A stretch of DNA of 35,940 nt from a virus, in the IMG/VR virus record IMGVR_UViG_3300048835_000243, positions 1 to 35,940 of that record, one strand, 5' to 3'. Numbering within the stretch: position 1 is the first letter of the stretch; the number at the start of each line of letters is the position of its first letter. Under the pieces are notes generated by a model. That model saw only the letters and a list, made by a program, of their open reading frames with translations. It did no database searches and was not told the DNA's origin. The translations under genes were made by a program, and so were the position numbers. Positions 4,130 to 14,447 of this stretch are shown piece by piece.

Positions 4130-4546
4130 CTACAACAAAAATAAGAATAGTATGATTGCACCAGTTCCTATAGAACCATGAATACCTCCATTGATATAAG
4201 CCTTTCTCTTGGCTTTTTTACTATCATTGATCATAAGGTTCAACTTACTTATAATTTCCTTCTGTGATGGAACTATAATGTTCCTGTATTGATCTATTTG
4301 ATTATTCAAAACAACCTCTGCTTCTTCATGCTCCACAATGATATTTTTTAGCATTTTATTTTCTTTCTGCAGGTATTCTACCTGGGCCTTAGATTTTTGA
4401 AAGTTAGAAAACACATTATTCAAAGAATCACGATCAACAGAAATATTATTGGTTTGCCCTGATAAACTGACGCAGAATAGAATCCCGAACACTATTAGGT
4501 AAGGTTTTGAATTTCTTATTAAGTTCATTGATTTTTGCTTTTTCAT
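4130..4546 (-). CDS. Outer spanin-like lysis protein (signal peptide, coiled coil, C-terminal anchor)
   Basis: 138 residues if read from ATG 4546; an internal ATG six codons later is also possible. An N-terminal hydrophobic segment ends in a likely signal peptidase site (VSLSGQ, near residue 30). A long heptad-rich stretch (about 40-105) follows, then a C-terminal hydrophobic helix (TGAIILFLFLL). Its first 101 bp lie inside the 3' end of the neighbouring membrane coiled-coil gene in another frame, the nested arrangement of Rz/Rz1 spanins. It is not an orthodox Rz1: there is no lipobox cysteine, and a C-terminal transmembrane helix takes its place. The spanin role is inferred from topology, overlap and the endolysin nearby. 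Confidence 0.6.
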   Translation of the reverse strand: MKKQKSMNLIRNSKPYLIVFGILFCVSLSGQTNNISVDRDSLNNVFSNFQKSKAQVEYLQKENKMLKNIIVEHEEAEVVLNNQIDQYRNIIVPSQKEIISKLNLMINDSKKAKRKAYINGGIHGSIGTGAIILFLFLL

Positions 4547-4838
4547 TGTTAAGGATTTTTACATTCTTGTTTAAATCTAATTTCAAACTTTCAATTTTTT
4601 CCAAAACATCTGAATACTGAACTTCTAAATTATCAACTGTCTTTTCAGCTTCGTTAATTGTGGAACTTAATTTTTCAATATCTTCTTTGTAACGCTCTGA
4701 AAGTTTTTTTGTGAGGGTTTTGTTGTTGAAATAAAGATATGCTAGGAAAATGAACATAAAGCCTAAAAAACCATACATAAAATATAACTTGCGTTTTTCT
4801 GGACTTATTTTGTTGGAAAATTTTATTTCTTCATTCAT
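4446..4838 (-). CDS. Inner spanin-like lysis protein (Rz-type topology)
   Basis: 130 residues. A short charged cytoplasmic N-terminus is followed by one transmembrane helix (YGFLGFMFIFLAYLYF, about 22-38), then a long coiled coil rich in Lys, Glu and Leu reaching into the periplasm, ending RDSILRQFIRANQ. This is the N-in, C-out layout of an Rz i-spanin. The gene lies just downstream of the endolysin and its 3' end overlaps the next gene by 101 bp in a different frame. Sequence identity to Rz is not visible, so the name rests on topology and context. Confidence 0.62.
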   Translation of the reverse strand: MNEEIKFSNKISPEKRKLYFMYGFLGFMFIFLAYLYFNNKTLTKKLSERYKEDIEKLSSTINEAEKTVDNLEVQYSDVLEKIESLKLDLNKNVKILNNEKAKINELNKKFKTLPNSVRDSILRQFIRANQ

Positions 4839-4849
4839 TGTTTTTCGTT

Positions 4850-4930
4850 TTATTCTTCAAAATGTTGATCAATAATATCATTGTGAAATTCATCTAACAT
4901 TTGAATTATTTGGGTTGAATTTATTTGCAT
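4850..4930 (-). CDS. Possible 26-residue translationally coupled ORF
   Basis: The stop of the endolysin gene overlaps an ATG (TAATG at 4928-4932), opening a 26-codon frame MQINSTQIIQMLDEFHNDII, ending DQHFEE. It is acidic and soluble and ends 11 bp before the i-spanin start. The overlap is the kind used for termination-reinitiation, and TAATG is used elsewhere in this locus. It may also simply keep ribosomes on the message towards the next gene. No function can be assigned. Confidence 0.4.
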   Translation of the reverse strand: MQINSTQIIQMLDEFHNDIIDQHFEE

Positions 4931-5286
4931 TACCTCTGCATTTCAAAATGTGGTGTATCCATAAATCCGTCCGCAATTCCGTTTTTATTAAAGTCTCCGC
5001 CCCAACGGTTCTTATCATGGAGCGATACCCAATAATCCCCCAATGGCTTAACATCCTCATATCTGTAGGTAAGATTTCCGTTTATAAAGAAATTAAAATC
5101 AACGGCCAATCTATCCAAGTGCTTACTGTTAAGGGTTTGGCTTTTGCCTTCTGCCTTTAACCGCTTTTGCTCTTCCAATGACCTCCAAGCGTGTCCAAAG
5201 GTCAATTCTATTCCTATGGTATAAGCATACTCAATAAGGCAACCGATGTTCCTTGTAAAAATCCGCTGTGCCTGGCCTAGTGTCAT
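4930..5286 (-). CDS. M15-family peptidase endolysin (VanY/DD-carboxypeptidase-like)
   Basis: A 118-residue zinc peptidase that should cut peptide cross-bridges of the host wall at lysis. It carries the M15 motif SxHxxxxAxD (SKHLDRLAVD: Ser54, His56, Asp63) and the second zinc/catalytic pair HxE (His113, Glu115 in TPHFEMQ), with a WGGDF turn near 95-99. The domain is complete and compact, with no separate wall-binding domain and no signal peptide. It therefore needs the adjacent holin-like proteins to reach the periplasm. The gene starts on the last base of the upstream membrane-protein gene and is followed by spanin-like genes, forming a standard lysis cassette. Confidence 0.88.
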   Translation of the reverse strand: MTLGQAQRIFTRNIGCLIEYAYTIGIELTFGHAWRSLEEQKRLKAEGKSQTLNSKHLDRLAVDFNFFINGNLTYRYEDVKPLGDYWVSLHDKNRWGGDFNKNGIADGFMDTPHFEMQR

Positions 5287-6085: not shown

Positions 6086-7504
6086 TTATAATCTATATTT
6101 AGTTGGCCCCAAATAAAAGAAAGGGCTTATTGTGCTTCCTATTCTAAATACTGTAGGGGTTATGCTTGTTTCAGGACTTACTCCTGCGTCTCCTTTACCT
6201 ACCCTGTAGTGCATAAACTCTTCGAGATTTAAATACCCATCAGCGTCGTCATCACCGCTATACGTTTCGTCCAAGTCGCCCCATCTTGCCATTTCCCAAT
6301 CGTCTCCCATTCCATCATTGTCAGTATCCGTATATGCGGTTCCAGAGGCTAGTGTAGGCAGCCCTGTTGTTCCCGCTTCACTACTTGGAAACGAACCAGT
6401 CGAGCCATTTGCACCATCTGCCAATATATGAGCATCCAAATCATCTACTCCGCTGGGCAGCCATGCCCTAGCCCCTGCATTGTCCAACACATAAGCCTTA
6501 ACCAAACTTGATGCCATTGCAATATGTTCGCTACTTACGTTAGGTGTGCCTGTGGTATAGGCCGAAATATTACTACTTACAGAAACAGAACCTCCGTTAA
6601 ATGTGTTATCAATTTGATACAATCTTGAAGTTGAAAAATCCGTCAATCCACTTGGAGGGCAATTGCCTGATGAGCAGGTTTCCCAATGTATGGTGTTGGC
6701 AATTTGAGTGGATGGCCCGTCCTCAAAAACATTGCCAATTGCATCCACCCAATTACCTGCCGTTGGATTTATCCCTAATCCATAATTATAGATAAAATTA
6801 TTAACCTGTTCCCATTTATCTGAATCGGTAGAACTTCTAATATTTCTTTCATTAGAATGGGCTAAATAATTTGCTATAAATGAAATATCTGAAATATTTT
6901 TACCCCAAAGAATAACATTTTTACTGTTAAATGGTTCTGAAATTATTGAATTCTGAACGGTCATATTGTTTACCGTTACACCCCCCCCGGTGCCAGTTTC
7001 TACACTAAAATTTTCATCGCCTCCCCATGACACAGAAATATGGTCAAACATATAATTTTGGAAAGTTCCAGATTGTCCTTGGCTTTGTATTCTAATAACA
7101 TCTTCTTCCTGTGAAACTGCTGTATCACCTCCCCTAAAGCGCATATCAGTAATAATTATATTCTGGCCATAAATATAGGTTTCATCATTATAGACAGTTA
7201 TCCCATCCCCAGGAGCGGACATCCCCCAAATGGTAATGTTATCCCCCGTTATGCCAAGGTCAGTACTTAATGTTACAGTTCCAGAAGTTCTAAAAATTAT
7301 ATTCCCACCACCAGCACTATCGGCATCCGCTAAGGCTTGTCTAAGACTACCTGCGCCACTATTATTTGTATTGGTAACAAAATATAATCCATATCCCCGA
7401 CCGCCCGTAGTGTATCTGCCGTGACCATGCGCCCAAGGAAGGGCTAAGGTCTGCCCCATCATTAATAAAGGAAATAAAAGAACTATGTAGGTGAGTTTAT
7501 TCAT
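6086..7504 (-). CDS. Secreted pectate lyase-like enzyme (PL1-type beta-helix)
   Basis: 472 residues, likely to cut pectin-like or other uronic-acid polysaccharide by beta-elimination. A Sec signal peptide (residues 1-19) precedes a right-handed beta-helix fold: SLRQALADADSAGGGNIIF (53-71), a SAPGDGITV turn (96-104), ITDMRFRGG (118-126) and DHISVSWGGDENF (154-166), all typical of bacterial PL1 lyases. AHSNERNIR lies where the catalytic Arg is usually found. The C-terminus has calcium-binding aspartate loops (DTDNDGMGDDW and DDDADGYLNLEEF), as in secreted Bacteroidota enzymes. It sits among fibre and lysis genes and overlaps the next upstream gene by 4 bp. GATC sites are absent and base composition looks richer in GC than the head genes, consistent with acquisition from a host-like source. 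Confidence 0.85.
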   Translation of the reverse strand: MNKLTYIVLLFPLLMMGQTLALPWAHGHGRYTTGGRGYGLYFVTNTNNSGAGSLRQALADADSAGGGNIIFRTSGTVTLSTDLGITGDNITIWGMSAPGDGITVYNDETYIYGQNIIITDMRFRGGDTAVSQEEDVIRIQSQGQSGTFQNYMFDHISVSWGGDENFSVETGTGGGVTVNNMTVQNSIISEPFNSKNVILWGKNISDISFIANYLAHSNERNIRSSTDSDKWEQVNNFIYNYGLGINPTAGNWVDAIGNVFEDGPSTQIANTIHWETCSSGNCPPSGLTDFSTSRLYQIDNTFNGGSVSVSSNISAYTTGTPNVSSEHIAMASSLVKAYVLDNAGARAWLPSGVDDLDAHILADGANGSTGSFPSSEAGTTGLPTLASGTAYTDTDNDGMGDDWEMARWGDLDETYSGDDDADGYLNLEEFMHYRVGKGDAGVSPETSITPTVFRIGSTISPFFYLGPTKYRL

Positions 7505-8064
7505 GGAATTGTAACCGTTATATCATCAAAAAATATCTTTCTGCCCGTTGGGGTGTCGCTATCTGATTGGATAAGAATATACCTCGTTGCTGCCGAACCA
7601 GTTGTAGTTCCAGATAAGGTGTATTCTGTCCAAACTGTAGTAGAAATTGTAGTTACGGCAATAGTGGAGGCCCAACCACCCCAAGATGGAAGCTCTATGT
7701 TCCATCTGCTAGTGCCAGCTTCCTCATAAGCCCATATCTTGACCGTTACCGCTGTGGATGGAGGCAATACTGCGTTGGTAAATGAAAATGTACCATTACT
7801 AGTTGCTCCCGTGGTTCCTGCTGTTAATTCCAATCTATAAGATCCATCATGTGGGCTTGTAGCGGTAGATGCTATTGTAGGGCTGTTTGTTCCCACGGTG
7901 AAACCTGTGGTAGCATTAACTTCACTATCTGGATTAGCAGCGTTGGCAAATGTATATAAGTTTGTAATACCACCGCCCCCCGCTTGTTGGATACTAGCCA
8001 ATAACAAGTCCTGCTGCCCATAAGCACTAAAAGAAAAAAGTAATATGATTAATAAACTCCTCAT
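7501..8064 (-). CDS. Exported jelly-roll (carbohydrate-binding-like) protein
   Basis: 187 residues. A short signal peptide (MRSLLIILLFSFSAYGQ) and a Gly-rich hinge (QQAGGGG) precede a beta-sandwich of about 145 residues. It shows the pattern of a carbohydrate-binding module: SPHDGSYRLELTAG, VKIWAYEEAG, WTEYTLSGTT, and a closing strand IFFDDITVTIP. It ends in a 4 bp overlap with the pectate lyase gene, and the pair may act together on surface polysaccharide. It could alternatively be a virion decoration or receptor-binding domain. Ligand unknown. Confidence 0.65.
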   Translation of the reverse strand: MRSLLIILLFSFSAYGQQDLLLASIQQAGGGGITNLYTFANAANPDSEVNATTGFTVGTNSPTIASTATSPHDGSYRLELTAGTTGATSNGTFSFTNAVLPPSTAVTVKIWAYEEAGTSRWNIELPSWGGWASTIAVTTISTTVWTEYTLSGTTTGSAATRYILIQSDSDTPTGRKIFFDDITVTIP

Positions 8065-9765
8065 TTATTCCAAGTCTAAAAAGTAGTAGTAAACGGTTCC
8101 CTGTATTACCGTTCCTTTGATTACCGATAATGTATTTGTTGAAAATCCTGCCGTCCCAGGTATTTCCGTTGCCCCTGTTATTGTGGGTTCACTTGCCATG
8201 TCTATAAGTATATCAAATGAAGCCCCGTTGCGTACCGTTGCGTTTAGTGTCCATGTTGCCGTATCCGTGGAAGTGTTGTCTATGGTATAATAACCGTCCA
8301 AAGGAATAACCGTGCCTGTGAAGGTTGTTGCCGGTGATGCATCTGTTGGAATTGAAAGTACATCTGTTCCCAATCCTGCCGCTTCTATCTGAGCCACCGT
8401 ACCCACATAAAGACTATCTATCGTTACAGGGGAATCTGGGTGCAATTGGATTCCAGAACCTGTAACACCTGCAATTTCCGCATCCACATAAGCCTTATCG
8501 GTCAAATCGGTTGCATCGGTTGGGTTTCCGCTTGCGTTTATTTTGGCTATAAGTTCATATACTCCACCATAATTGATTTGATTTGAATTTTGTCTGGTGA
8601 AAAGAAAATCACCATCCACTTGCGAAGGTTCTTTTCCAAATGCCCATCTTTTATCGGAAACACCATACACCTGACCGTTATAAATAGGATTATTAAAAAG
8701 TCCTATAGCAAAAGTGTTATCGCTGGACCAAGTATTCGATGTTGCCAACCCCCCTTTCTCCGAATCCAGTTCATTAATAGCTGCTTGCCCTGTAGTAGCT
8801 GCAATATTTCCAGATGGGGTATTATCGATTTCGGACATATCATAATCAAGCATTGCCTTCAATTGCGGAATAGTTCCGTCTATAGGAGGGGCAGCACTTC
8901 CCGTATTGTTCAGTTTTATGCTGTTGGCTGCCATGTCCGCTAATTTGGCGTTGGTTATGGAGCCGTCTGCTATAGTTCCGCTACCAGCTACGGAATCTAC
9001 ATAATCCTTATCAGCCAAATCGGTGCCAACTGTGGGAGTACCAGTATAATTTAAAGTGTATAATGTACTGAATGAATCATTATGACCAATTTCATATTGC
9101 CAAACTAAACTTCTATCAGTATCAGATATAGTCCCACTTCTTAATAATTGCCACTTGGCATTATCAGTTACATCTTTTTGTTTCCAAGATAAACTGTTTA
9201 ACTGTACACTATTAGATGATACTAAACCTGTAAAATTAGTTGTACCTGCGAATGAATTAGTAGTAGTCCATGAATTAACCGAGTTTAATCTACCGAATTT
9301 AGTATCTAAGTCAAGTACATCATCTATAAAATTATTAACTGTTGTAGCTTGTAGATTCCCAGTTATATTACTTATAATTGGCGATGATGGTGTAACCGTT
9401 GCTAGTTTAGTAAGTGCTATACCTGCTGAACTGTTTATATCATTATTAGTTATAGTTCCATCCGCTATCTTTGAAGTGGTAATAGCATTGTCTAATATTT
9501 CAGTTTCTGATACTTGATCAAGCTGAGAAAGATCACCCAAAGACAAGTCGGCAATATCAGATGCCAAAATATAATTATCCCACGAAACCCCATTCCACGA
9601 AGCTAAAGAATTATTTATGCTGTCATAATAAATCTCACCTCTTATTGGTGTGCTTGGCGCATCCTTTGGAGCAATCCTTAAACCATCTGATTTAGGTATT
9701 TGTCTTTGGCCATAAATAGATCCAGTTGCAAATAACAGTAGTACAATGTAAATTAATTTTTTCAT
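8065..9765 (-). CDS. Tail fibre/adhesin with an N-terminal signal peptide
   Basis: About 566 residues. The ATG at 9765 is preferred over a GTG one codon earlier, because it overlaps the previous stop as TGATG. Residues 1-20 ([20 protein letters not shown]) form a convincing Sec signal peptide. The next part ([20 protein letters not shown]) is a head seen in Bacteroidota phage fibres. The body is low-complexity and strand-rich with partial repeats ([38 protein letters not shown]), typical of trimeric fibres, and ends in a beta-rich domain. A signal peptide on a fibre is odd, because virions assemble in the cytoplasm. One base separates it from the jelly-roll gene. Confidence 0.72.
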
Positions 9766-9944
9766 CACTTATTTTTTCTAGTTGTTGACTCATAAAACAC
9801 ATTTCCATCTTCATCCAGTAACTTGATGGTGTCACCATCTTTTACCATGGTTGGAGTGTCTTTCCTCTGGTTTTTCAATATGATTATAAACCAAATAATT
9901 AGACCTATTGAAATAAGATCCAATGCAATTCTTAATATTGTCAT
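9765..9944 (-). CDS. 59-residue single-pass membrane protein of the fibre locus
   Basis: ATG 9944 opens [20 protein letters not shown], continues with IILKNQRKD, and ends in a soluble acidic-basic tail ([16 protein letters not shown]). It has one transmembrane helix (about 5-23) and then a cytoplasmic or periplasmic tail. It is coupled on both sides: ATGA overlap with the preceding gene and TGATG overlap with the fibre gene. This precise fit and the amphipathic design support a real gene. A membrane protein beside exported fibre proteins suggests a role at the envelope; function unknown. Confidence 0.7.
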
Positions 9945-10405
9945 GATCCGTGCGTTGTGTTAATATATGCTTTAATATTAGGGTAACTATCTGTGGCTGC
10001 ATCATAAGTGTTCCATGGGAGATCTTTAACGATCCCTGTAACTTTTCTCATGCTATTTCCTTCATCAAAACCATCAATTATATCATTTATCTCTACTGCT
10101 TCATAATCACCTTCGAGATCAGCTTTCCATACTTGAAGAAAACCTATAACGGCTAACCTAGTTCCTACCAATCCAGAAGGGCCAACTAATGAAATGCCAG
10201 TTCCCCACTCCCCTGCTGTTTTTGGGCCATAAAGAATATTGGAAGTTTTATCTATATAATAATCGGTATTACTTCCAAGTGCCGGATTTGGAACACCAGT
10301 TCCAGACAACAAAGCCCCACCAGTTCCTGCATTTAAGGTTACTCCCGACTCAAAAATTTCTACTTCAATGGTATCACCATTATCAGTCACTATTGTTTTA
10401 GACAT
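9941..10405 (-). CDS. Tail fibre/collar-associated protein
   Basis: 154 residues. The N-terminus has a beta-strand repeat (TIVTDNGDTIEVEIFESGVT), and the middle carries a fibre-head signature (NTDYYIDKTSNILYGPKTAG) found in many phage fibre proteins. The C-terminal half holds acidic and aromatic segments (WKADLEGDYEAVEIND). It overlaps the upstream gene by 8 bp and the downstream membrane-protein gene by 4 bp. Most likely part of the adsorption apparatus; precise role not resolvable. Confidence 0.65.
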   Translation of the reverse strand: MSKTIVTDNGDTIEVEIFESGVTLNAGTGGALLSGTGVPNPALGSNTDYYIDKTSNILYGPKTAGEWGTGISLVGPSGLVGTRLAVIGFLQVWKADLEGDYEAVEINDIIDGFDEGNSMRKVTGIVKDLPWNTYDAATDSYPNIKAYINTTHGS

Positions 10406-10757
10406 CTGAAAATTCTTTTATTGTTACTACGTTAAATTTGCCACCGATAAAAATCTTTTTATCACCATCAGGATATTCTACAAGTAAATGCCAGTAATAC
10501 TTTGCAGGAGTTAATTCAATCTCTTTGATCTCACCAACCTCTACCAAACATAATCCGGCATCATTAATAGTAACTATTCCTGTTTGAGAATCTTCATTAA
10601 TGTAGAATTTTGAAGTCGAACTTCTGAAAACTTGAAACCTTACAATGCATGAAGTCAGATCCACAAGTTCTTCATTTACATATCTTTTTAATGCAAAAAC
10701 TCTTGCCTCTAATGTAGTTCCCTGAATAACATCATTAAAATTATAAACTGCAGCCAT
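10398..10757 (-). CDS. Baseplate/fibre-attachment protein (BppU N-domain-like)
   Basis: 119 residues from ATG 10757 (MAAVYNFNDVIQGTTLE). A GTG 14 codons upstream would add a poor hydrophobic stretch, so the ATG is preferred. The sequence alternates beta strands and turns and includes TAKYYWHLLVEYPDGDKKIF-like spacing (near 85-105), a layout shared with small upper-baseplate domains that anchor fibres. It is the first gene after the tail tip and is preceded 64 bp upstream by the dyad at 10822-10835. It probably opens the fibre/lysis transcription unit. Family identity is tentative. Confidence 0.55.
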   Translation of the reverse strand: MAAVYNFNDVIQGTTLEARVFALKRYVNEELVDLTSCIVRFQVFRSSTSKFYINEDSQTGIVTINDAGLCLVEVGEIKEIELTPAKYYWHLLVEYPDGDKKIFIGGKFNVVTIKEFSDV

Positions 10758-10821
10758 GTCAAACGTTTTACCAAAAATGGCAATAATAATCCTAAACACT
10801 ATTAATCCGTAATCGGCAGTT

Positions 10822-10841: not shown

Positions 10842-13800
10842 CTACTGCTGTCCGATCCTAGTAGCTCTCCAAATTCCACCTACTTTTACAAGCATACACA
10901 ATGTATCAGTTATTGAAACTGAACCATAAGATCCTGCAGAATGAGAAAACTCAATTGTATTACCATCTGATCCTGCAATAGTCTTTGTACCCTTTGCTTG
11001 AAACAAAATCATCCTTCCATCAAGGTTGTTTATTTCACTAGGTAAATATGTAGTGTAATTTATACCAGAGGCATAAACATAACAATCAGTAGAATTTAAT
11101 GTTACTCCACTTGTTATTGCTCTTACAGAAGTATAAAGACCCCTACACATTATTCTTTCAAACCAACCACCAAATGTAGGTGCTCTTTCGTTTACAGTAG
11201 CATAATTATTGGTTGCTTTTCCATAAACTCCAATTACCGAAGTATTGCTACCTCCACCATAAACCCTAAGTTTAGCACGAACATCTGCTTTAATACCCAT
11301 CTTCTTAGTAAAAGCACCTTCACCTGCAGTAGATCCGTTAATTGAATTTCCTGCAAAATTTAAGTTCAAACCATCAGTATCTAATATTGAGGTGGCTGAC
11401 TCTTGTGATGCATTTCCAGAATGAGTAGAAATTATTTGCCCTGTAGAACTATCTATTTTGATCGTTTGCACTACTACAGATGCGGTATCAAGTTCATTGT
11501 AAATTGTCTTATTACTTTTAAGGGTAATTACCCCTGTATTTCCGTTAAACTGTAACCTTGGATCTGATCCTACTACTGTCTGACTAGATATTTTTCCACC
11601 GTTAATAATGAAGTCCGCAATGTTTGCTGATTCTGCTAAAAGTAGATTTGTGGCGACACTTTCAAATTGAGCACCGAAATTCTGAAACCTACCAACAACA
11701 AATGAAGATTGAACCAAGGCATCAGTAAAATTATAAATGTAGTATGTGCTTCCTGATTTTACTACATCACGTCTTACGGAATTATTGTAAAGTGTCATTC
11801 CATTATAGAAAACTCCTCGATAAACAAGTCCTGGGCCATCTGAACCATCAGTGCCAGGTACACCATCATCACCTCTAAACTTTGACCACACATAATCAGC
11901 TTTATTAGTACTTTCAGATGCATCAAATTTGTTAACTGCAATTCCTATGTATTCAGTAAATGCATTAGGAATATCATATAAGCCAGTTCCATCTGCGTTA
12001 TTAGAATATTTGATCCAAGTATATCCCTGCAAACCATCTACGCCATCTACTCCTTTTATTAGAGACCAAGAATAATCTGCAGGATTTGTACTTTCTGTTG
12101 TAGTAGGTTTGTTATAGGCAAGACCAATATATGTTTTTCCAGTTGGATCGTTACTTAAACCAGAACCTCCTGCAGTATCGGCATATTTGATCCAAGTATA
12201 AGTTGTGGTTCCTTCACCGTCCAATCCTTTTGCTGCCATTATTTTCCACTTCGTTATATCTGTAGGTGGTGCACCGGAAAACAAGGTTCCTATCGCAATA
12301 TAAGTGCTTCCAGAATAATAAACCGCATCATCTTTGGCGTAAATAGTGGTATTATTATAGTCACCCCTCCATAAAGGCAAAGAACCCTCGCCACCAAATT
12401 TATTCTGAAATAACGCCCCTTTTATAGTTAATGTATTTGGATTTGTCACATTCCAATCCATCCCGTTAAATCCACCATCACTAAGTAATAAACTGCCATT
12501 ATCAAGATCAAGATAATTATATCCATTTAAACTTTGGATCTTTCCTGTAGTGATGAACTTTCCATTTATAAAAGTTTGCCCGTAAGTAAGCGAAATATTT
12601 CTTCTGATTGCTCCATTAGTTAAAATTCCTGCATGAAGGAAACCAAGTAAAAAAGTATATAAACCTGCACTATGATCAATTTTCTTTTGCTCTAACGAAT
12701 ACTCGATTATTCCTTGATTTGTTGTTGGATTACAAACAGCATAAATATAGTATGCATGATCATTGATAAGATCTACCGTATTTGAAGGTATTGCAAATTC
12801 TTTTACTATTGGCTCAATCGTGAAATGAACCAAAGTACATGAAGTATTATATATTTTGTTTTTTATGCCGTACCTATTAGGATCTAACTCTAAACCAACA
12901 ATGTTCATGTTTAACGGCTTTGCACCTACGCTTAATGCAGCCGTCTCAATTGATAAAGGTTTGATTTTCTCATTGTTGAAATATCCATCTACATCAAAAA
13001 TATCTTTGGTAACTGTGTTTAGATCCTTTACTTTTTGAGCGATTCTTATTCGCTCGGCAGTTCGATCAATTCTTTCTTTTACAATATTTTCATTATTAAC
13101 CTCAATTCCTATTTGCACCCTGTTTAGTAGAGTAACAAACGAATTGTTTCCAACCTTGATCACGTATTTATATTGATCTGCCAAACTTTGCTGAATTTCA
13201 ACAACTTTTGTAGATATAGTAATTCCAAAGTCAGTATCAACAATTTGAATAATATCGCCTACATTCAATGTAACCACGTTGGATCTAAACCAAACATGAT
13301 CTGGTTTTATTTCATATATAACATTTGGAACGCTATACTTTGCCAAATATTCATTGGCCCTGCTCAACAATTCTGTTTCTGCTGCAGTTATATAGCTTTC
13401 AGGCATTACAATATCATGTATAACGTATTGATCACCTACTTGTGGTTTTGATATTGCATTTGGCAAAGTTTCATCCTGATCAGTAGTAATTGCAATTAAA
13501 GTAAACTCTTTTGTGGTATGGTTATACTTTTCAACTTCGAACTCATATCCTGCCAATAATCCAGAATTAAAAGTCACTTTTGCAATACTACTTGATAATT
13601 GATCGTTTAAATCAAAATCAATTGAATAATCTTTGAATTTTGTTGGATCTAACAAATCAATGTCTTGAACATTAGCTAATCTTCTTGGGTAAATATCTTC
13701 AAATATTACCGACTTCTCAATGACACCAAATGTTGAAATATTGTTTTCAATGTATTTTGTTCCGGACGTTAATTGCAACCGCCTTGATCCATAATCACCA

Positions 13801-14447
13801 TAAATGATATTTCTTTCAGATCCATAAGGGTACAATCGAGTCATAAACTGACCATCGTTTAACTCTTTTCTTTCAATATCACGTAAACCATTTTTAAATT
13901 GAAAACTCAATGCAGTAGCAACACCAACACTTTCAGCTACATTAAATGAAAGACCGTTGTCGGCAAATTTATATTCCAGACCAAATTCTACACAAATCTT
14001 CTGCAGTGAACTTAGACAAGTATCTTGATTAAACTGTATGTTTTTAAAACTTGTAGTCGGGTATGTTCCTACACCATAAACACCTGTTCCACCTGCTCTA
14101 TTCATGTTGTCTCTGATCAGGAAAACAAAAGTTTCAACTGTTCCTGATAAATAAAAATCATTGATACCATCCAGAAGAAATAATGCCTGATCATAATTAT
14201 ACTGTGGCGCATAAAAGTCTACATTGTACAGGAAAGAATTGGATTTTGATTTTTTAATTACCGGCTGTTTTATAGCCTTGTATTTTCGGCCCCTCCAATT
14301 TATGAAATCACCGATCCTAACATCAACAAAAGTTTCCAAACTAAAAGTCATGTTAATCACGTGTTCACCCATTAAAGTATGTTTTAAAATACTATTATCA
14401 TCAATAGGTGCATCTACCACATTTATTATACCTCTGTAAATTATCAT
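10842..14447 (-). CDS. Tail tip / tail-associated protein with duplicated surface modules
   Basis: 1201 residues. The first 400 or so resemble the structural hub of a siphophage tail tip (FINWRGRKYKAIKQPVIKKS, near 50-68, then Dit-like and hub-like beta domains). A mid region is followed by two related 59-residue modules beginning YTWIKYADTAGG and YTWIKYSNNADG (about 745 and 805). These look like carbohydrate-binding repeats and share an 18-base DNA word at their start. Next come collagen-like glycine repeats (GDDGVPGTDGSDGPG) and a C-terminal region with a shaft-like domain. It overlaps the distal-tail gene by 4 bp (ATGA). No protease motif was recognised. The module composition suggests host recognition as well as structural function. 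Confidence 0.8.
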   Translation of the reverse strand: MIIYRGIINVVDAPIDDNSILKHTLMGEHVINMTFSLETFVDVRIGDFINWRGRKYKAIKQPVIKKSKSNSFLYNVDFYAPQYNYDQALFLLDGINDFYLSGTVETFVFLIRDNMNRAGGTGVYGVGTYPTTSFKNIQFNQDTCLSSLQKICVEFGLEYKFADNGLSFNVAESVGVATALSFQFKNGLRDIERKELNDGQFMTRLYPYGSERNIIYGDYGSRRLQLTSGTKYIENNISTFGVIEKSVIFEDIYPRRLANVQDIDLLDPTKFKDYSIDFDLNDQLSSSIAKVTFNSGLLAGYEFEVEKYNHTTKEFTLIAITTDQDETLPNAISKPQVGDQYVIHDIVMPESYITAAETELLSRANEYLAKYSVPNVIYEIKPDHVWFRSNVVTLNVGDIIQIVDTDFGITISTKVVEIQQSLADQYKYVIKVGNNSFVTLLNRVQIGIEVNNENIVKERIDRTAERIRIAQKVKDLNTVTKDIFDVDGYFNNEKIKPLSIETAALSVGAKPLNMNIVGLELDPNRYGIKNKIYNTSCTLVHFTIEPIVKEFAIPSNTVDLINDHAYYIYAVCNPTTNQGIIEYSLEQKKIDHSAGLYTFLLGFLHAGILTNGAIRRNISLTYGQTFINGKFITTGKIQSLNGYNYLDLDNGSLLLSDGGFNGMDWNVTNPNTLTIKGALFQNKFGGEGSLPLWRGDYNNTTIYAKDDAVYYSGSTYIAIGTLFSGAPPTDITKWKIMAAKGLDGEGTTTYTWIKYADTAGGSGLSNDPTGKTYIGLAYNKPTTTESTNPADYSWSLIKGVDGVDGLQGYTWIKYSNNADGTGLYDIPNAFTEYIGIAVNKFDASESTNKADYVWSKFRGDDGVPGTDGSDGPGLVYRGVFYNGMTLYNNSVRRDVVKSGSTYYIYNFTDALVQSSFVVGRFQNFGAQFESVATNLLLAESANIADFIINGGKISSQTVVGSDPRLQFNGNTGVITLKSNKTIYNELDTASVVVQTIKIDSSTGQIISTHSGNASQESATSILDTDGLNLNFAGNSINGSTAGEGAFTKKMGIKADVRAKLRVYGGGSNTSVIGVYGKATNNYATVNERAPTFGGWFERIMCRGLYTSVRAITSGVTLNSTDCYVYASGINYTTYLPSEINNLDGRMILFQAKGTKTIAGSDGNTIEFSHSAGSYGSVSITDTLCMLVKVGGIWRATRIGQQ

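Follow-up and report, generated by a model that had tools for sequence, protein, structure and literature searches.

Sec signal peptides on the fibre, jelly-roll and lyase genes of a presumed flavobacterial siphovirus suggest a periplasmic route for virion parts

Tailed phages are taught to assemble in the cytoplasm. The siphovirus sequence examined here, IMG/VR record IMGVR_UViG_3300048835_000243 (35,940 bases at its full length; hereafter, the window), carries a cassette of three adjacent genes for a tail fibre, a jelly-roll protein and a polysaccharide lyase, each of which opens with a Sec-type signal peptide. Consecutive signal-bearing fibre and lyase genes likewise follow the tail genes in the Cellulophaga phages phi39:1, phi10:1, phi19:1, phiSM, phi18:3, Nekkels and Ingeline, in which glutamine nearly always occupies position +1 and many of the proteins are flagged as structural from tandem mass spectrometry (MS/MS). 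The lyases of these phages are only 27–31% identical to that of the window and are often fused behind long fibre domains, and none of the runs examined contains a stand-alone jelly-roll gene. Such records of these phages as were consulted make no mention of the signals. On balance, we favour the reading that the window cassette is the receptor-binding and depolymerase set of a Bacteroidota siphovirus, whose products would be Sec-exported virion proteins that dock at lysis.

Tailspike depolymerases such as Dpo31 of Cobetia phage Carin1 are virion-borne and, as in the window, place a polysaccharide-degrading enzyme at the tail-fibre locus; however, neither Dpo31 nor the beta-helix gene of Vibrio phage 1.021.A carries a signal. 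Passage of late phage proteins through Sec before lysis is described for exported endolysins, whether signal-bearing or of the signal-arrest-release type, but these are lysis enzymes and not virion parts (PMC6116005). Sec signals that follow the Q-rule, in which signal peptidase I (SPI) exposes a glutamine, occur on genes of Porphyromonas gingivalis phages as they do in the window (Matrishin et al. 2023, PMC10367356). The P. gingivalis phage proteins are of unknown function and are read as outer-membrane modifiers (PMC10367356), whereas the window genes encode fibre and lyase proteins with virion evidence in relatives. The P. gingivalis proteins are the only Q-rule phage proteins found in the open-access literature searched, which also yielded no earlier report of exported fibres or depolymerases; priority is not established, subscription papers such as the original Cellulophaga proteomics lying outside the search. 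A flavophage paper that lists pectin lyases does not mention signals.

Signal peptides of the cassette and their retention

The terminase, portal, major head, tape-measure and tail endopeptidase-type genes of the window all lie on the minus strand, and the gene order runs from tail genes through the cassette to lysis genes (an M15 endolysin and probable spanins). The first-pass annotation of this DNA had reported three consecutive genes with clear Sec signal peptides, and the reading frames are indeed found at the places it gave, on the minus strand, the fibre frame opening at a GTG one codon ahead of the ATG that it listed (Table 1). The lyase start codon overlaps the stop of the jelly-roll gene. 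All three signals were called by a rule-based scan (positive n-region, uncharged h-region, small residues at -1 and -3) rather than by a dedicated predictor. The same scan made no call on the head and tail genes of the window that lie outside the cassette, and none among the non-cassette virion proteins flagged by MS/MS in the tabulated phage genomes (0/73). On control genomes it called 15 of 348 open reading frames of at least 150 aa; several of these are genuine exported or membrane proteins, such as lambda Lom and Rz, and a single one has Gln at +1. Mis-annotated starts were ruled out as the origin of the signals, which start from the earliest in-frame start codon and are found repeatedly in different phages.

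Each window signal combines a positive n-region and a hydrophobic h-region with a small residue at -1 and Gln at +1. In Bacteroidota, unlike related phyla, most SPI substrates expose a Gln that then forms pyroglutamate (Bochtler et al. 2018, PMC5837995), and the proportion exposing Gln is 77% in P. gingivalis (PMC10653852). Since all three cassette signals end in this Bacteroidota-specific site, they are, as far as the sequence tells, host-type export signals, and the same endings suggest a host among the Bacteroidota. The window phage is taken to be a virus of marine Flavobacteria.

A sister phage (loci L022/L028), which has tail genes in common with the window (95% identity in the 1201-aa tail protein), retains the fibre signal together with approximately 45 mature residues, while the fibre C-terminus is different. 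Such a conserved N-terminus with an exchanged C-terminus is the pattern of receptor-binding or depolymerase proteins at a tail-fibre locus. The jelly roll is also different and the lyase is only about 39% identical to that of the window, yet all three sister proteins still carry a signal plus Gln. This retention despite swapping argues that selection acts on the signal while the remainder is exchanged. Export of the products, as the first-pass annotation had proposed, is strongly supported by the Q-rule sites and by the persistence of the signals through module swaps.

A lyase-profile scan of IMG/VR returned 33 loci. Bacteroidota-type cassettes were recognised in the window and in L022, L032, L040, L029, L055, L065 and L075, and in the Cellulophaga phages phi39:1, phi10:1, phi19:1, Nekkels, Ingeline, phiSM/phi38:2, phi13:2, phi18:3 and phi19:3. 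As read from the listed N-termini, 36 of the 38 cassette proteins, drawn from unrelated Bacteroidota phages, have Gln at +1, the exceptions being phi19:1 gp104 and the L032 lyase; the frequency of Gln in the mature proteins is 2.6%. An automatic filter gave 29/38, since it excluded sites with nearby H, P, E or K, and seven of its nine rejects read by eye as Ala, Gly or Ser followed by Gln (the window lyase, the L022 jelly roll, phi39:1 gp25, the L032 and L084 fibres and two L086 genes). Near-invariance across 33 cassette proteins is confined to the start Met, the +1 Gln and one Gly. The first cassette fibres of 10 phages share a domain that follows the signal immediately, as found with a profile trained on the same fibres; this domain may dock the fibre onto the tail. 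Lyase matches in two human-fecal records labelled 'Bacteriophage sp.' (L009, L010; MT835948, MT835778) were dropped because their neighbours, TonB/SusC-like outer-membrane proteins and lipoproteins, mark the loci as bacterial rather than phage; these public records look like bacterial polysaccharide-utilisation loci.

Three marine phage contigs, L033 (1694-4963), L034 (2499-9362) and L044 (6516-9500), are unlike the Bacteroidota ones and contain three to four successive signal-bearing genes, the last encoding a lyase of the polysaccharide lyase family 1 (PL1) type. Their signals lack the Gln and have sites of the AxA type. Vibrio phage 1.021 has a terminase 61% identical to that of L033. The hosts of the three contigs probably belong to other phyla. 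The absence of Gln would fit a signal that follows the peptidase of its host.

The hydrophobic N-termini could conceivably remain uncleaved, serving as virion anchors or packaging tags with no real export. That signal and following domain move as a unit, while receptor domains can be swapped with phages that lack signals, would suit such a role. The +1 Gln, however, would serve no purpose in an anchor: it is nearly invariant, and only signal peptidase and glutaminyl cyclase make use of a Gln at this position; the Gln-less marine phages have AxA-type sites instead, and the hydrophobic stretches would require a membrane or a pocket in the tail. We therefore regard an uncleaved anchor as improbable. 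Between the two fates that the first-pass annotation had offered for the N-termini, cleavage or anchoring, we infer cleavage.

Virion membership in relatives and attachment at lysis

GenBank MS/MS notes flag 14 signal-bearing proteins as virion proteins in five Cellulophaga phages of sipho-, myo- and podovirus types: gp25 and gp26 of phi39:1 (gp26 being the lyase), gp91-94 of phi10:1, gp08 of phiSM, gp101-104 of phi19:1 and gp85-87 of phi18:3. Every gene of the cassette runs of phi19:1 and phi18:3 is so flagged. These flags are notes of the depositors rather than spectra, and they concern relatives rather than the window phage. The first-pass annotation had reasoned that export would place the products outside the virion, which is contradicted in these relatives; 'exported, so outside the virion' appears to be a false choice, because proteins with the same signals are virion proteins there.

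A different account would make the products secreted helpers that act before or at lysis by cutting capsule, freeing progeny or blocking receptors, with the MS/MS identifications explained as contaminants. The clear Sec signals agree with this account, for which exported endolysins are a precedent and VexL is an example of a natural periplasmic capsule depolymerase. However, 14 proteins with signals are flagged as structural, among them the whole runs of phi19:1 and phi18:3. Moreover, the cassette genes belong to the run of tail genes, their reading frames overlapping or abutting; the fibre has hits among tail-fibre PHROGs; and in phi10:1 the region downstream of the tail tip shows no further large fibre candidate. 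We consider secreted helpers rather unlikely, although less so than uncleaved anchors.

Export of virion proteins followed by docking has its own difficulties. An MS/MS note is missing for the lyases of phi10:1 and phiSM, which also suits secreted helpers; the flagged proteins could be co-purified periplasmic proteins; and data on cleavage or localisation were found for none of the cassette proteins. No signal was found on the checked fibre and tail proteins of phi14:2 (crAss-like), phi18:1, phi46:1, phi38:1, 11b, 6H and RAP44, so fibres as such need no export. A 46%-identical domain is shared by signal-less g081 of phi14:2 and the signal-bearing siphovirus fibre Nekkels gp53. The checked fibre and tail proteins of lambda, Vibrio phage 1.021.A and Carin1 are signal-less as well, apart from one spurious call on a lambda Stf fragment. 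Signal-bearing fibre cassettes are thus common in some lineages and not universal.

Periplasmic maturation with attachment at lysis is the simplest account that reconciles cleavage-selected signals with virion membership in relatives. Late in infection, Sec would translocate each cassette pre-protein, and SPI would cleave it to expose the Gln, which a host glutaminyl cyclase would convert to pyroglutamate. All three mature products, namely fibre, sugar-binding jelly roll and Ca-dependent lyase, would then fold and wait in the periplasm, the expected waiting place given that no C-terminal sorting domain of the type IX secretion system was found in 33 cassette proteins (Pfam, NCBIfam). At lysis they would meet fibreless tails from the cytoplasm and attach at the tail tip, where the conserved domain that follows the signal would hold the fibre. 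The lyase would breach the uronic-acid capsule, or the exopolysaccharide, of the cell infected next and might also remove that of the lysing host. Attachment of fibres (T4) and tailspikes (P22) to finished particles in vitro is classic.

Cysteine pairing was considered as a sign of periplasmic folding, but the counts were mixed and were given no weight. The Bacteroidota O-glycosylation sequon D[ST][AILMVT] (PMC12871550) is rarer in the signal-bearing cassette proteins, at 0.58 of the shuffled expectation (14.6 kaa, non-redundant), than in 232 control segments (0.99), with 0.64 in a held-out set. The depletion is driven by DT (0.42) and not DS (0.77), and Fisher's test against the controls gives p=0.09. 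It is suggestive of periplasmic exposure, although as a post hoc observation it was not counted as evidence.

The lyase and its likely substrate

The PL1-like character proposed for the lyase is confirmed by several comparisons. The protein matches the PHROG 'pectate lyase' (E=1.5e-30) and, with phmmer, 9buj (E=7e-15). Its AlphaFold model (pLDDT 80.7) has the right-handed parallel beta-helix of PL1, and the best PDB match is again 9buj (PfPL1, E=6e-15), with classical pectate lyases at E 1e-8 to 1e-3. The second-best structural match is VexL (6fi2), a periplasmic depolymerase of bacterial capsule; PfPL1 and VexL are cellular enzymes with 16–20% identity to the window lyase in structural alignment. 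The NCBIfam PelZ model (NF041900) scores 92.7 bits against a curated cut-off of 840, indicating a related protein that is not PelZ. Among 17 relatives R220 is invariant, D154, H155 and D163 are nearly invariant, and W160 is invariant or nearly so. R220 and D154/H155/D163 are the presumed equivalents of the PelC catalytic set. For the jelly roll, the best fold matches of a low-confidence model are CBM61/16/4.

The nearest cellular lyases (47–48% identity) lie in exopolysaccharide (EPS) loci of Flagellimonas onchidii and Muricauda, beside genes for a nucleotide-sugar epimerase, UDP-glucose 6-dehydrogenase, a glycosyltransferase and a MurJ-type flippase. A tree built with a quick method groups the window lyase with these relatives in one clade at 98% support. 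From such relatives and the structural matches, the substrate is likely to be the host's own uronic-acid polysaccharide (capsule) and not algal pectin. Digestion of plant or algal pectin to feed the host, one half of an earlier suggestion, is accordingly not supported, while the other half, a softening of the host's own matrix, fares better, in keeping with the EPS-locus relatives and the VexL match. A lysogenic-conversion or feeding gene could claim the PL1 fold and the filing of PHROG 27797 under auxiliary metabolic genes, but the late structural position among tail and lysis genes, the EPS setting of the closest cellular relatives and the flagging of the homologue phi39:1 gp26 as a virion protein make this the least probable of the explanations considered.

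In F. onchidii XY-359, the EPS-locus lyase (L083 3494-5242) and a cassette lyase in an integrated element (L084 3998-5470) are 85% identical over 383 aa, a recent exchange between a host capsule locus and a phage fibre locus. The element (L166/L167) encodes a G2P-type replication protein, small membrane proteins, an M15 endolysin and a signal-bearing fibre and lyase, and looks like a relative of ssDNA phages rather than a tailed prophage. This pair might be taken to mean that the cassettes were built from secreted host adhesin and lyase genes whose signals are functionless leftovers. The host copy, however, has a lipoprotein-like signal (..LTSSC) whereas the phage-like copy ends ..LSCG↓QETI (arrow, predicted cleavage), so the signal was replaced and not inherited. 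Signals also survive module swaps, and no host source of this kind was seen for the fibres and jelly rolls that carry them. Capture of host fragments with idle signals is therefore very unlikely.

The outer member of the probable spanin pair of the window has a hydrophobic C-terminal stretch in place of a lipobox, plus a Q-rule signal.

Table 1. Cassette genes, their signals and neighbouring features in the window
Feature	Coordinates	Strand	Basis
Tail fibre protein, 567 aa, start GTG 9768 or ATG 9765	8065..9768	-	PHROG tail fibre E=7.9e-9
Fibre Sec signal peptide, Gln at +1	9709..9768	-	Rule-based scan; identical in sister phage L022
Fibre mature N-terminal segment, candidate virion-docking domain	9574..9708	-	Domain shared by the first cassette fibres of 10 phages
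CBM-like jelly-roll protein, 187 aa	7501..8064	-	Fold matches
Jelly-roll Sec signal peptide MRSLLIILLFSFSAYG, Gln at +1	8017..8064	-	Rule-based scan
PL1-fold polysaccharide lyase, 472 aa, C-terminal Asp-rich Ca-binding-type repeats	6086..7504	-	PHROG, phmmer, structure model
Lyase Sec signal peptide MNKLTYIVLLFPLLMMG, Gln at +1	7454..7504	-	Rule-based scan
Tail protein, prophage endopeptidase tail domain, 1201 aa, no signal	10842..14447	-	Pfam PF06605 E=7e-11
133-aa protein without signal, candidate tail-tip/baseplate adaptor	10398..10799	-	Position
154-aa signal-less protein, immediately upstream of cassette, candidate cytoplasmic tail-tip adaptor	9941..10405	-	Position
M15 peptidase endolysin	4930..5286	-	Pfam PF13539, PHROG endolysin
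Probable o-spanin, Q-rule signal (..SLSG↓QTNN)	4130..4546	-	Rule-based scan; layout
Coiled-coil transmembrane gene, probable i-spanin, overlaps probable o-spanin gene	4446-4838		Layout

Consequences for tailed-phage assembly

Taken across the lineages, the cassettes may, tentatively, represent a second assembly route of tailed phages, in which receptor-binding and capsule-cutting parts would be exported through Sec, matured by the signal peptidase of the host (in Bacteroidota also by glutaminyl cyclase), held in the periplasm apart from the virions in the cytoplasm, and attached only once lysis brings the two compartments together. It would be used by Bacteroidota phages of sipho-, myo- and podovirus types, by an integrated ssDNA-phage-like element and, with a differently tuned cleavage site, by phages of other phyla. 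If receptor-binding proteins do pass through the periplasm, intracellular virions would be non-adsorbing and the fibres would gain host modifications; co-infecting phages could also share fibres at lysis. Sec-exported fibres would depart from the accepted way in which tailed viruses are built.

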